Origin: Blautia parvula
GTDB taxonomy: Bacteria > Bacillota > Clostridia > Lachnospirales > Lachnospiraceae
Reading direction: 5' to 3'
NCBI RefSeq assembly: GCF_020215665.1
Contig: NZ_CP084061.1
Coordinates: 1,488,001 to 1,552,000 of the forward strand
Length of the DNA stretch: 64,000 nucleotides
The notes below the pieces were generated by a model that searched no databases, was not told where the DNA came from, and saw nothing but the letters and a program-made list of their open reading frames with translations. Of the stretch, positions 7,127 through 60,979 are shown one piece after another; position 1 is the first letter of the stretch; each line of letters starts with the position of its first letter. The position numbers and the translations under genes were made by a program.

Positions 7127-7294
7127 ATAATTTCTTCCTTTCTCTTTCGATTTTTTATTGTCTATGCTATAATCTTACCACTGATTTTATTTTTAGCAAG
7201 AACGCACTTTTCTGGTATATAGTACCCAAAAAGTAACCATCCCCCCACGCATGATCTCTGCTGTGGAAAATACGAAAAAGAAAGGAACATCAAA

Positions 7295-7615
7295 ATGAAA
7301 GTATGCAGCGACACTTACACCTGCCCTGTGGAGGCAACCATTCATCTGATCGGCGGAAAATATAAGGCAGTCATCCTCTGGCATCTGAGGGATCAGGTGC
7401 TCAGGTTCAGCGAACTGCACCGGCTTATCCCAAAAGCTACAACCAAGATGCTGACACAGCAGCTCAGGGAACTGGAAAGCGACGGCCTGATCAGCCGTAC
7501 GGTTTACCCGGTTGTGCCTCCAAAAACAGAGTACGCACTGACGGAATTCGGCAAAACGCTTCTTCCTGTGTTGGAGTCTATGTGCGACTGGGGGCGCAGA
7601 ATCTGCCCCTCCTAA
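7295..7615 (+). CDS. HxlR family winged-helix transcriptional regulator
   Basis: This 106-residue protein has the HxlR pattern CPVEATIHLIGGKYKAVILW near the start, FSELHRLIPKATTKMLTQQL as the recognition region, and the wing TVYPVVPPKTEYALTEFG. Cys4 and Cys10 lie before the HTH; in HypR/YodB-type HxlR proteins an N-terminal cysteine senses disulfide or quinone stress, so thiol sensing is plausible here. It is divergent from the nitroreductase across 168 bases, which is the expected position for its regulator. Its stop overlaps by 4 bases the end of the convergent alpha-CTD-like gene. Confidence 0.88.
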   Translation: MKVCSDTYTCPVEATIHLIGGKYKAVILWHLRDQVLRFSELHRLIPKATTKMLTQQLRELESDGLISRTVYPVVPPKTEYALTEFGKTLLPVLESMCDWGRRICPS

Positions 7616-7872
7616 AACAACTCATCCCAAAAATCAAGCTGGAATTCTCTCATCTTTTCCCGCAGCAGAGACATTTCTCTGTCATTCAGCACTGCAGTTT
7701 CCCGCAGTTCATTTTCGGTACATGACAGGATGTCCGTAACATACTCAATCCTGTGGTTTTTCAGTTTATCTGTCAGCTTTCTGCCAAGCCCCATCTCTTC
7801 TACATGGTTCGGCATTCTGCTTTTGGTTTCTTTACTCTTTTTGAGGAATTTACTCCGACCTGTTTCAATCAT
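7612..7872 (-). CDS. small RNA polymerase alpha-CTD-like (HhH) protein, probable output of the invertible promoter
   Basis: This 86-residue protein has a basic N-terminal tail (about 22 residues) followed by one helix-hairpin-helix domain. Its pattern is that of the RNA polymerase alpha-subunit C-terminal domain: MGLGRKLTDKLKNHRIEYV, then a DILSCTENELRE helix and a final helix NDREMSLLREKMREF. The domain binds UP-element DNA or regulators in RNA polymerase; as a free small protein its role is unknown. GGAGGG lies upstream of the ATG. The only upstream promoter I can see is in the neighbouring invertible segment, which currently points away from it. Transcription would then depend on inversion. 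Confidence 0.7.
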   Translation of the reverse strand: MIETGRSKFLKKSKETKSRMPNHVEEMGLGRKLTDKLKNHRIEYVTDILSCTENELRETAVLNDREMSLLREKMREFQLDFWDELF

Positions 7873-7920
7873 ACCCTGCTCCCTCCGGTTTTCTGTCCTT
7901 CCTGCGGCTGCTTACTTACT

Positions 7921-7938
7921 ACATAATAAGAATTATGT
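7921..7938 (+). repeat. left inverted repeat (recombination site)
   Basis: The core is ACATAAT-AAGA-ATTATGT, itself an imperfect palindrome. With flanks the arms extend to 12 bp (TTACTACATAAT against ATTATGTGGTAA, 11 of 12 matching), the layout of a tyrosine-recombinase core site. Confidence 0.75.
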
Positions 7939-8006
7939 GGTAAAAAAAGATTATCTTCTAAAGGAATCTTATGAGAGGTGCAGCAGAATATGCCGTCTTT
8001 TCTTTT

Positions 8007-8040
8007 AAGCCTGCTTTTATCTGCCTGCAGGCTTCTTTTT
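8007..8040 (+). terminator. terminator inside the invertible segment
   Basis: Arms AAGCCTGC and GCAGGCTT (8 perfect pairs) are followed by CTTTTT on the plus strand. As drawn it would stop rightward read-through. After inversion it would stop leftward read-through from the recombinase gene, insulating the switch. Confidence 0.7.
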
Positions 8041-8116
8041 GATATGTTTAAGACTTGGTAATTACAGATAATTTCTATACTCCGCTGTCCAAAAAAGACA
8101 AACCGAGTATATTTTG

Positions 8117-8145
8117 TTGACATTTTTTACCATATGTATTAAAAT
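8117..8145 (+). promoter_or_regulatory. consensus sigma-A promoter in the invertible segment
   Basis: A perfect -35 (TTGACA, 8117-8122), a 17-base spacer and a -10 of TAAAAT (8140-8145). It points right, away from the alpha-CTD-like gene, in this orientation. Confidence 0.8.
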
Positions 8146-8181
8146 TTCTATAAACCAGATGCATTAACATTTATCTCAACT

Positions 8182-8199
8182 ACATAATTCTTATTATGT
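8182..8199 (-). repeat. right inverted repeat (recombination site)
   Basis: This is the exact reverse complement of the 18-bp core at 7921-7938. Its outer edge is 17 bases from the recombinase stop codon. Confidence 0.75.
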
Positions 8200-8216
8200 T
8201 GTGTTAATGCTTTCCC

Positions 8217-9074
8217 TTATGGAACGATCAAATCCAACTGTTCTATCATTCCCTGAAATTTCTTCAGTGTATCCGCGGTATAAATCCTCGTCACTTCAAG
8301 ACTGCTGTGTCCCAGAACATCCGCTAATGCGGCAAGGTTATTTGTGACCTTATAAAAAGAGCGCGCAAAGAGATGGCGCAGATTGTGTGGGAATACTTTC
8401 TTTGGCTTGATCCCTGCCTGTTCCGCTAATACTTTCATCTCTGTCCATATGTTGCTCCTGTCCTTTGGCTTTCCGCTTCTGGTAATGAAGACAGGACCTG
8501 ACTTGATTCCCTGTTTTCCGGCGTAGCACAAAAGCTTCTTCCGCAGGCTCTCCGGAATTAGGACAATCCTTGTCTTTCCCTTGTTACAGACTTCCAGACG
8601 GCCGTCCTGAAGATTTTTCACTGTCAGATATTTCAGCTCGCTGACCCTGACCCCTGTGGCACAGATGGCCTCCAGTATCAGGGCAAGCTGGCTCTTCTCC
8701 TTCTTTCTTGCTGTCTCTACCAGTTTCCGGTATTCCGTCTTTGTCATTTCTTTTTCTGAATCCAGAAACATGCGCTTCTGCACTTTATAACTTTTTACTT
8801 TCAGCTCAGGAAAACACAGGTAATCCAAAAAGGAGTTGACTGCTGCCAGCATAGAATTGGCGCTGCTTACTGCGTACTGCTGTCTCAGCCACTCTTTATA
8901 TTCCAGAAGACGGATTCTGTGGACCTGTCTGTCCGTTCCCAGGTATTCCAAAAACGTCTTTAAATCCGTGGAATATTTTCTGATGGTTGCCGCTGTCTTT
9001 TCCTGGCTGTATAAGTGATAAGAAAATTCTTCGATCAATTCTGTCTTCATGGTAAAGGTGATTTCTTTCTGCAT
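8217..9074 (-). CDS. tyrosine recombinase, probable invertase of the adjacent switch
   Basis: This 285-residue protein has an N-terminal SAM-like core-binding domain (YHLYSQEKTAATIRKYSTDL) and a C-terminal catalytic domain. The catalytic set is visible: first Arg in ATGVRVSELKYL, HxxR in HNLRHLFARSF, then LGHSSLEVTRIYT with the second His and the nucleophilic Tyr near residue 267. Size and layout match XerC/D-like invertases and integrases. The ATG at 9074 has AGGAGG 7 bases upstream. It ends 17 bases from the right inverted repeat of the candidate switch and no other mobile genes are near, so DNA inversion of that switch is its most likely job. Confidence 0.88.
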   Translation of the reverse strand: MQKEITFTMKTELIEEFSYHLYSQEKTAATIRKYSTDLKTFLEYLGTDRQVHRIRLLEYKEWLRQQYAVSSANSMLAAVNSFLDYLCFPELKVKSYKVQKRMFLDSEKEMTKTEYRKLVETARKKEKSQLALILEAICATGVRVSELKYLTVKNLQDGRLEVCNKGKTRIVLIPESLRKKLLCYAGKQGIKSGPVFITRSGKPKDRSNIWTEMKVLAEQAGIKPKKVFPHNLRHLFARSFYKVTNNLAALADVLGHSSLEVTRIYTADTLKKFQGMIEQLDLIVP

Positions 9075-58864: not shown

Positions 58865-58884
58865 TTAAGAAAACCATTTCTTAA
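58865..58884. promoter_or_regulatory. operator palindrome 1
   Basis: TTAAGAAA-ACCA-TTTCTTAA is a perfect palindrome with a 4-base spacer. It lies about 15-30 bases downstream of the predicted leftward transcription start, in a classic repression position. Confidence 0.65.
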
Positions 58885-58903
58885 ATTGTTTTCCTATGCA
58901 TGT

Positions 58904-58932
58904 ATTGTACAGCCCTCTCTGTGCACTGTCAA
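58904..58932 (-). promoter_or_regulatory. promoter of the leftward riboside operon
   Basis: TTGACA (58927-58932), a 17-base spacer and TACAAT (58904-58909) on the minus strand. Confidence 0.85.
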
Positions 58933-58965
58933 TAGTTTTTCTATTTTTTGTGAAATAAAACTATT

Positions 58966-58983
58966 TAAGAAAAAGTTTTCTTA
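58966..58983. promoter_or_regulatory. operator palindrome 2
   Basis: TAAGAAAA-AG-TTTTCTTA closely resembles operator 1. Its centre is 100 bp from that of operator 1, which would suit DNA looping by a LacI-type protein. Confidence 0.6.
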
Positions 58984-59077: not shown

Positions 59078-60979
59078 ATGACAATCAAAGAAATCGCCAG
59101 CCTGGCCGGTGTCTCTATTTCAACGGTTTCCAAAATCGTTAACAACAAAGACCAGAATATCAATCCTGAGACCCGCAGCCGGGTACTGAAAATCGTAAAA
59201 GAATACAACTACACACCTTACGGCATGGTAAAAAATATATCCAATGCGAAGCGCTTTCTGCTGGGCGTCCTGCTGCGCACTGCCTCACAGACCAACCTGA
59301 TGCTGAACGGCATCCTGCAGGCCGCCCAGGAACAGGGATATAATGTACTGCTTCTGGACAGTCTGAACAGCGCAGATACGGAGTTAAAGCACATCACATC
59401 TCTGTGCAAAAACAATGTGGACGGTGTGATCTGGGAGCCGGTGGATGAGAACAGTCCCCAGCATGAGCATTACTTTGCGGAACAGAATATCTCTGTCAGC
59501 TATATCAATGCTCCTTATACCCTGCCTGCCTACAATATAGATTTTGAAAAAATGGGATACGTCCTGACGCAGAAACTGCTGGAGTATAAACACAGCAAGA
59601 TTGCATGTCTTGTGAAGGAAAAAAGCAGGCGTTCCGGCATGGTGTTTGAGGGATTCAAGAAATGTCTCTTTGACAATCAGATCCCCTATCATAAAAAGAT
59701 GAAGCTTTACATCTCTGACCCTGCCTGCTGCTCCAGGATACTGAGCCATGGTTTTTCAGGCATAGTCAGCTCGCATTTTGCCTCCTCCCTGATCCTGTAC
59801 GAGCAGATGGATAAACTGCACTATTACGTGCCCTCGGACCTGTCCCTGGTGAGCTTAAAGGATGATGTGCGGGAAGCAATCTCTTTCCCTCATATATCCA
59901 GTATCAAAATCCCTTACCGGGAGTTCGGTTACTATGTGTGCAGGAATCTGATCCAGAAATGTGAGAAAAAAGAGGCGGCAGAACCGGAATATACTTTTGT
60001 CTCACAGTGCGATTTCGACAACGAGGACAGCCTTGACATTCCTTCCTTCTTCCGCGGGAAGAAGATCGTAGTGGTTGGCAGTATCAACACGGATATCACC
60101 TTCAATGTTGACTGGCTTCCCCAGGCGGGAAAGACCACCACGATCTTGAGTTCCACCACCACACTGGGAGGCAAAGGAGCCAACCAGTCTGTTGGCGCTG
60201 CCAAGCTTGGACGGGAAGTTTCTCTCATAGGGGAAATCGGCAATGACACGGATTCCACCTTTATTTTCGATATCCTGGAGAAAGAACAGGTGGCAACTCA
60301 GGGCGTACACAGGGATATGAAGGCGCAGACCGGGAAGGCATATATCTATATTGAACGGGACGGCGAGGGAACCATCACGATCATGTCCGGAGCAAACGGC
60401 AATCTGAGCCCGGCAGACATACAGAAACGGCAGCATCTCTTTGAAAATGCCGGCTTCTGCCTGCTCTCCACTGAGATTCCCATTCAGACCGTTCTGGAGG
60501 CAGCGAAAACTGCCAGGAAATACGGGGCAAAAAATATTGTAAAGCCCGCTGCCCTGAAATCCATACCGGAACAGCTTCTGCAGAATACAGATATCTTTAT
60601 CCCCAACCGTAAGGAAGCGGCCGCCCTGTGTCCCAAGTACAATACAGTGGAGGAACAGGCCGAATACTTTTACCAGAAAGGGATCAAGACAGTGATCATT
60701 ACGCTTGGACATGAAGGCTGTTATCTGAAAACCGAGGATAACGCAAAGTATTTTCCGGCTGCGGATTTCATTTCCATTGATACCACCGGCGGTGCGGATG
60801 CTTTTATCTCAGCTCTGGCCTCTTTCCTGATCGAGGGGTATTCTCTGGAAAAGTCCATCCGGATCGCCACGTATGCTGCAGGGTGTTGTGTATCCAGGCA
60901 GGGCGTTGTTCCCGCCCTTGTGGACCACAACACCCTGGAAACCCATATCAAAAAACTGGAACCGGAACTTCTCAAATAG
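59078..60979 (+). CDS. LacI-family regulator fused to a ribokinase-like domain
   Basis: In this 633-residue protein, residues 1-55 are a LacI HTH (TIKEIASLAGVSISTVSKIV with hinge). Residues about 60-320 form a periplasmic-binding-protein-like sensor (FLLGVLLRTASQTNLMLNGI start). From about 330 a PfkB domain (IVVVGSINTDITFNVDWLPQ, GGKGANQSVGAAKLGREVSL) runs to the end. The kinase motifs are altered: the usual NPAPA is KPAALKS, and GAGD is GGAD, though the catalytic Asp is kept. It may sense rather than turn over ribose. The ATG at 59078 follows AGAGGGATCTC. It is divergent from the operon it presumably controls. Confidence 0.88.
   Translation: MTIKEIASLAGVSISTVSKIVNNKDQNINPETRSRVLKIVKEYNYTPYGMVKNISNAKRFLLGVLLRTASQTNLMLNGILQAAQEQGYNVLLLDSLNSADTELKHITSLCKNNVDGVIWEPVDENSPQHEHYFAEQNISVSYINAPYTLPAYNIDFEKMGYVLTQKLLEYKHSKIACLVKEKSRRSGMVFEGFKKCLFDNQIPYHKKMKLYISDPACCSRILSHGFSGIVSSHFASSLILYEQMDKLHYYVPSDLSLVSLKDDVREAISFPHISSIKIPYREFGYYVCRNLIQKCEKKEAAEPEYTFVSQCDFDNEDSLDIPSFFRGKKIVVVGSINTDITFNVDWLPQAGKTTTILSSTTTLGGKGANQSVGAAKLGREVSLIGEIGNDTDSTFIFDILEKEQVATQGVHRDMKAQTGKAYIYIERDGEGTITIMSGANGNLSPADIQKRQHLFENAGFCLLSTEIPIQTVLEAAKTARKYGAKNIVKPAALKSIPEQLLQNTDIFIPNRKEAAALCPKYNTVEEQAEYFYQKGIKTVIITLGHEGCYLKTEDNAKYFPAADFISIDTTGGADAFISALASFLIEGYSLEKSIRIATYAAGCCVSRQGVVPALVDHNTLETHIKKLEPELLK

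Follow-up and report, generated by a model that had tools for sequence, protein, structure and literature searches.

The locus described here lies in a stretch of 64,000 nucleotides of Blautia parvula DNA, referred to as the window. A gene for a tyrosine recombinase (positions 8217-9074, minus strand, 285 aa; PF00589, E = 7e-25) is followed, 17 nt behind its end, by a pair of inverted repeats. Beyond these repeats a small αCTD-like gene is found on the minus strand (7612-7872, 86 aa), which we presume to be the target of a switch. The segment bounded by the repeats (7921-8199, 279 bp) is flanked by the recombinase gene on one side and by the small gene on the other, as stated in the original prediction. 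The small gene is convergent with an hxlR-type regulator gene (7295-7615) and overlaps it by 4 nt; a nitroreductase gene beyond hxlR is on the strand of the small gene. From the small gene to the recombinase gene the unit measures 1,463 bp (7612-9074), and the expectation that the whole switch including its enzyme would occupy less than 1.5 kb is borne out.

The left core of the repeats (7921-7938) reads ACATAATAAGAATTATGT and the right core (8182-8199) is the reverse complement of ACATAATAAGAATTATGT. The 18-base repeats claimed for the ends of the 279 bases are indeed perfect; they enclose 243 nt. Together with their flanks (7918-7941 and 8179-8202) the arms comprise 24 nt and are 92% complementary. 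Each core is in itself palindromic about a spacer of 4 nt, the left one being ACATAAT-AAGA-ATTATGT and the right one ACATAAT-TCTT-ATTATGT. Palindromic half-sites around a 4-nt spacer are the shape of a crossover site of tyrosine recombinases, and judged from its sequence ACATAAT-4-ATTATGT at the element ends is the recombination core.

We then asked how unusual such a pair is. Among 263 sliding stretches of 960 nt across the window a score of at least 18 was reached solely by the pair at 7921-8199 and by one A/T-rich pair near 58.9 kb. Six places in the 6.25-Mb genome match the core pattern exactly; they form three inverted pairs, and the reversed control pattern occurs nowhere. When the ends of the pattern were relaxed to R/Y and one mismatch was permitted, 18 places were found against 2 for the control; ten of the 18 combine into five pairs and eight are single. 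The A/T-rich repeat (58866-58983) is imperfect, with arms of 27 nt that are 64 nt apart; it precedes a possible ATG near 59079 and resembles an operator more than an inverton. We also considered an open reading frame of 84 aa which crosses the element at 7869-8123 on the minus strand and rejected it as a gene, as this frame is open for only six codons in genome G009.

A promoter sequence, TTGACA-17-TAAAAT, is located within the element at 8117-8145 on the plus strand. It matches the consensus at 11 of 12 positions and is the best of nine promoter matches between 6500 and 10400, a number that is not above the one obtained with shuffled sequence (7.0, sd 2.9); the promoter is near-identical across three species. 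In the deposited orientation it points toward the 3' end of the recombinase gene and away from the small gene, for which this would be the OFF state. From 7872 to 8216 the scan lists no promoter match on the minus strand. The plus-strand promoter has an intrinsic terminator (8007-8040) behind it on its own strand, consisting of a hairpin with an 8-bp stem and a 12-nt loop (8007-8034) and a T tail. The hairpin folds with -12.7 kcal/mol (z = -2.9), and stem and T tail are kept in three species. The standard terminator scan we used allows loops of 3-8 nt and consequently does not list this hairpin. Read on the minus strand the hairpin lacks a T run behind it, and the search gave no terminator for this direction. 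When inversion of the element is simulated, 102 nt separate the end of the -10 box from the start codon of the αCTD-like gene, and the terminator comes to stand between recombinase and promoter. The consensus promoter, its direction away from the small gene, the terminator and a small gene with no listed promoter match of its own all agree with the original prediction. We tried the terminator as a defining part of a wider module family and discarded it, since it is found upstream on the same strand in only 7 of 29 confident loci, three of these seven being the present locus and its orthologues.

The recombinase carries residues which we take to be catalytic (R143, K167, H230, R233, H256 and Y265), and each of them is present in 70-72 of 72 aligned sequences. 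The gene evolves with a dN/dS of 0.03-0.06. The protein resembles phage and Xer-type integrases; against the XerC and XerD models it scores 107 and 111 bits, below the NCBIfam equivalog cut-offs of 335 and 330. Scans of genome_contigs, in which near records may be omitted, and of viral_contigs each gave a single distant integrase, with 24% and 25% identity, respectively; these two were set aside. With PADLOC we searched for a defence role of the recombinase and the αCTD-like protein and obtained no family for either.

The small protein had been described as αCTD-like. This likeness is real, yet it is weak: the protein matches PF03118 with E = 2.5e-4 and 21.2 bits, below the curated cut-off of 23.8, and it again falls under the cut-off when the whole genome is searched with this model. 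It also aligns with the C-terminal part of the rpoA model TIGR02027 (E = 8e-6) and with a solved alpha subunit (E = 0.0058). A structure model from the single sequence is of middling confidence and has an αCTD entry as its top structural match, which is not significant. The αCTD of Escherichia coli contacts DNA through R265, N268, G296, K298 and S299. Compared with the RpoA of its own genome, the 86-aa protein is changed at the DNA-contact positions, R being replaced by K, N by D and LGRKSL by LNDREM. A second small αCTD-bearing protein is encoded in a sister species (G008:C1:745463-745633, L156, within a frame of 145 aa), and this one scores above the Pfam cut-off.

Of 20 genomes from the genus three hold the αCTD-like gene, and of 397 genomes drawn from the bacterial family one does, namely the window's own. 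A class-wide profile search gave weak matches within frames of 326 and 993 aa in two of 390 other genomes, and a comparison with PHROG at E = 0.01 gave no match. The protein is 88-91% identical across the three species, and from a dN/dS of 0.08-0.13 we judge the gene to be under purifying selection. A likely ribosome-binding site, GGAGGGA, is read from the sequence 7 nt before the ATG (7880-7886, minus strand), and its letters are identical in the three species. The flanks of the locus likewise match in these species apart from local gains and losses. The sister genome G008 lacks the adjacent hxlR gene and keeps the αCTD-like gene; G009 lacks the AraC and dehydratase genes located beyond the recombinase. 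Thus, recombinase, element and αCTD-like gene form the constant unit.

For relatives of the recombinase we searched the proteins of 397 genomes of the bacterial family (E <= 1e-40) and scored at most six candidates per genome; within this limit relatives were found in 82 genomes, the own genome included. We examined the 146 listed matches, among them the present locus. As 22 of them are followed by less than 300 nt of sequence, 124 were assessable. Behind the gene an inverted pair with a score of at least 13 is present in 108 of these 124 loci, and with a score of at least 16 in 100; 16 relatives have no clear pair. In a control with 355 shuffled stretches derived from 71 pair-bearing loci, seven reached a score of 13 and the best reached 15. 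In 101 of the 108 cases the pair starts between -20 and +80 nt from the recombinase stop codon. In 80 pairs each of the two sites agrees with ACATAAT-4-ATTATGT in 12 or more of the 14 letters. The other 28, which mostly belong to more distant relatives, fit this core poorly and often have other palindromic half-sites, for example ACAGAAT or ACGGAAT. The comparison of these sequences suggests that site and enzyme change together. Among 60 assessable relatives drawn almost entirely from the best-ranking matches, the pair is present in 59; the share over all 124 is lower because distant relatives fit less well. We also looked at further loci from earlier searches, which had partly been chosen for carrying sites. 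The pair is present in all twelve assessable ones, and at a thirteenth (L106) no recombinase was seen.

The window's genome contains at least five such recombinases, each with its own pair, among the six candidates scored per genome. Outside the window the modules are L093 (G000:C1 1224781), beside a protein with a helicase-associated domain; L096 (G000:C1 3689592), beside an 82-aa orphan; L094 (G000:C1 3887560), beside a 96-aa open reading frame followed by a secreted-looking protein; and L095 (G000:C1 5749339), beside a 130-aa open reading frame. We inspected the next open reading frame of at least 80 aa at the first 71 loci, taking raw open reading frames. It runs in the direction of the recombinase in 62 of 70 loci and in the opposite direction in eight, and one locus has none within 900 nt. 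Ten of these frames were compared with Pfam. They comprise a sugar transferase, a Cna_B/VWA surface protein, a repeat-rich protein, a signal peptidase, CpsB, a BTAD activator, an Rrf2 regulator, a Cro-type regulator, a protein with a helicase-associated domain and one protein without a match. With the Rrf2, Cro-type and BTAD proteins among them, regulator targets are not unique to the present locus.

The spacers were analyzed with a test that locates sites from the half-sites only, tolerating one mismatch and assuming no pairing. This test finds exactly two sites in 57 of the 108 loci, and in 56 of these 57 the spacers are inverted. The exception is L134, which has two direct copies of the site 73 nt apart; in L099 the spacer is palindromic and counts as both direct and inverted. 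The first 71 loci contain 42 distinct spacers, and mates taken from different loci match in 86 of 4,970 comparisons. That the spacers are equal within all 71 pairs is in part a consequence of how the repeat search works. Strand exchange inside the spacer requires spacers of the kind seen here, which differ from pair to pair while the two mates stay complementary. A strict address code, in which the spacer would specify the module, was considered and rejected, as one and the same spacer may occur in two modules of a genome. This is so for L095/L096 in the window's genome (GGTG) and for L110/L135, L092/L113 and L083/L085.

To see whether the modules occur in both orientations we compared 15 pairs of loci. 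Between L101 and L096 the inner sequence is identical at 154 of 203 positions when one element is inverted and at 114 of 165, with gaps, when it is not; for L101 and L097 the values are 153 of 202 inverted and 114 of 160 uninverted. The inner sequences of L105 and L107 agree at 110 of 133 positions inverted, and merely 16 positions, 13 of them identical, are alignable uninverted. In all three comparisons the genomes are related and the recombinase and the downstream flank are collinear. Two sister modules are therefore found in both orientations, and such modules flip in nature. The same orientation is seen for L096/L097, L095/L100, L102/L104, L103/L104, L090/L092 and L087/L092, and the pairs L094/L095, L083/L085 and L075/L076 are uninformative. 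Together with the pair behind most of the relatives and the common direction of the next open reading frame, the sister modules uphold the claim of an invertible-promoter architecture. At the present locus, by contrast, the inverted orientation that had been looked for in related genomes was not found in the three of 20 genus genomes, or in the single one of 397 family genomes (the window's own), that hold the small gene. All three species share the OFF state, and the element is identical to its two orthologues at 221 and 210 of 243 positions, uninverted. By analogy with the sister modules, this locus would flip as well. Across 120 elements the promoter points confidently away from the target in 39 and toward it in eight, with 73 being ambiguous; the inverted module L101 is not among the 47 confident calls. 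Thus, presumed ON states are a minority in the assemblies.

In our view the region 7612-9074 is very probably a self-contained phase-variation switch with an invertible promoter. We observe the sites, the gene order, the recurrence across the family and both orientations in sister modules, and we suggest that the switch operates as follows. The recombinase would bind both ACATAAT-4-ATTATGT sites. Strand exchange within the inversely oriented 4-bp spacers would then invert the 279 bp. In the OFF state, which is the deposited orientation, the promoter would fire toward the 3' end of the recombinase gene, and in the ON state toward the αCTD-like gene. As the terminator would then stand between recombinase and promoter, the αCTD-like target would have its own transcript. 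Orientation would thereby set expression ON or OFF, and the 86-aa protein could subsequently act as a regulator, probably by contact with DNA or with partners of RNA polymerase. It is a rather doubtful extension that the stand-alone and diverged αCTD-like protein competes with RNA polymerase or redirects it, whereby inversion of the 279 bp would split a clone into two global transcription states, and that the family consists of modules with one enzyme for one switch whose half-sites and 4-bp spacers diverged along with their enzymes.

The switch could also be real and have its main output elsewhere, namely an antisense transcript over hxlR and into the nitroreductase gene in the ON state or an antisense transcript on the recombinase in the OFF state. 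The arrangement of the genes would allow this, with the small gene overlapping the convergent hxlR and the nitroreductase gene lying beyond; moreover, the only terminator-like match listed on the minus strand in 7127-7611 is weak and lies inside hxlR. We nevertheless regard it as unlikely, as the αCTD-like gene persists in the sister genome that lacks hxlR and as this gene is under purifying selection and preceded by the conserved GGAGGGA. Still less probable, in our opinion, is a relic which once flipped and is now locked in the OFF state. The uniform orientation in the three species would agree with it, and because the search gave no minus-strand terminator between recombinase and small gene, the αCTD-like gene could be expressed solely by read-through from the recombinase. 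However, a relic would hardly have two perfect cores and a recombinase with its presumed catalytic residues and such a low dN/dS, nor would it retain its spacers and a promoter that lacks an obvious sense target in the OFF orientation. Finally, we consider it extremely improbable, despite the resemblance of the recombinase to phage and Xer-type integrases, that the pair serves a mobile element for integration or resolution and is not a promoter switch, because in most relatives the sites are paired, inverted and directly behind the recombinase, the three species share the flanks of the present locus except for local changes in gene content, and orthologous sister modules differ in orientation.

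How does a phase-variation switch of this kind compare with known systems? In the fim system of E. coli the order is recombinase genes, element and target, with the two recombinases FimB and FimE. The fimS element is described as a 314-bp invertible promoter which is inverted by a tyrosine integrase (PMC9993118, PMC8844915). Whereas fimS has two recombinases and a fimbrial operon as its target, the present module has one recombinase and a single regulator-like gene of 86 aa. For the cmr switch (Cdi6) of Clostridioides difficile, PMC8844915 describes an invertible element controlling the transcription regulator genes CmrRST. According to the same source the RecV recombinase of this organism inverts several sequences, whereas each module here has its own recombinase gene, a pairing known from gene position. 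Large-scale work has defined an inverton group 139 with 33 invertons, 32 of which are from the class Clostridia (Jin et al. 2025; PMC11892184). According to that paper, a tyrosine recombinase of invertase group 35 is near nearly every inverton and is counted among the non-regulatable genes, two examples given with coordinates span 255 and 257 bp, and orientation shifts were seen in metagenomic reads and in culture. The present module is like this group in the adjacent tyrosine recombinase, the Clostridia host and an element size near those of the two examples. By this description it is probably close to group 139; the main text of PMC11892184 contains no ACATAA or TTATGT, and the word Blautia is absent from it too. 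Our literature search found no paper on recombinase-linked phase-variable invertible elements in Blautia and, among the papers listed, no title on an αCTD-like inversion target or on these modules. Invertible promoters as a kind are already known; what this locus adds is the anatomy of the module and the αCTD-like target.

A self-contained switch of 1.46 kb whose likely output is a transcription regulator and not a surface protein could affect a large number of genes. With the help of the related modules, invertible promoters, enzymes and targets can be predicted from sequence in this bacterial family, as an inverted pair is expected right behind each such recombinase. The five modules in one genome offer a basis for telling whether half-sites or spacers set the pairing of enzyme and element. 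The half-sites of the distant relatives are varied (ACAGAAT, ACGGAAT, ACCGAAT and others, in L173, L172, L185, L186, L203, L207, L220, L226, L228, L230 and further loci) and constitute a natural set for reading the DNA-recognition code of the recombinase. At some loci, namely L074, L085, L088, L126, L131 and L143, the site is present three or six times. Judged from the sequence, such extra copies could permit elements of several lengths; in L074 three tandem copies, 34 nt apart, are found on each side.
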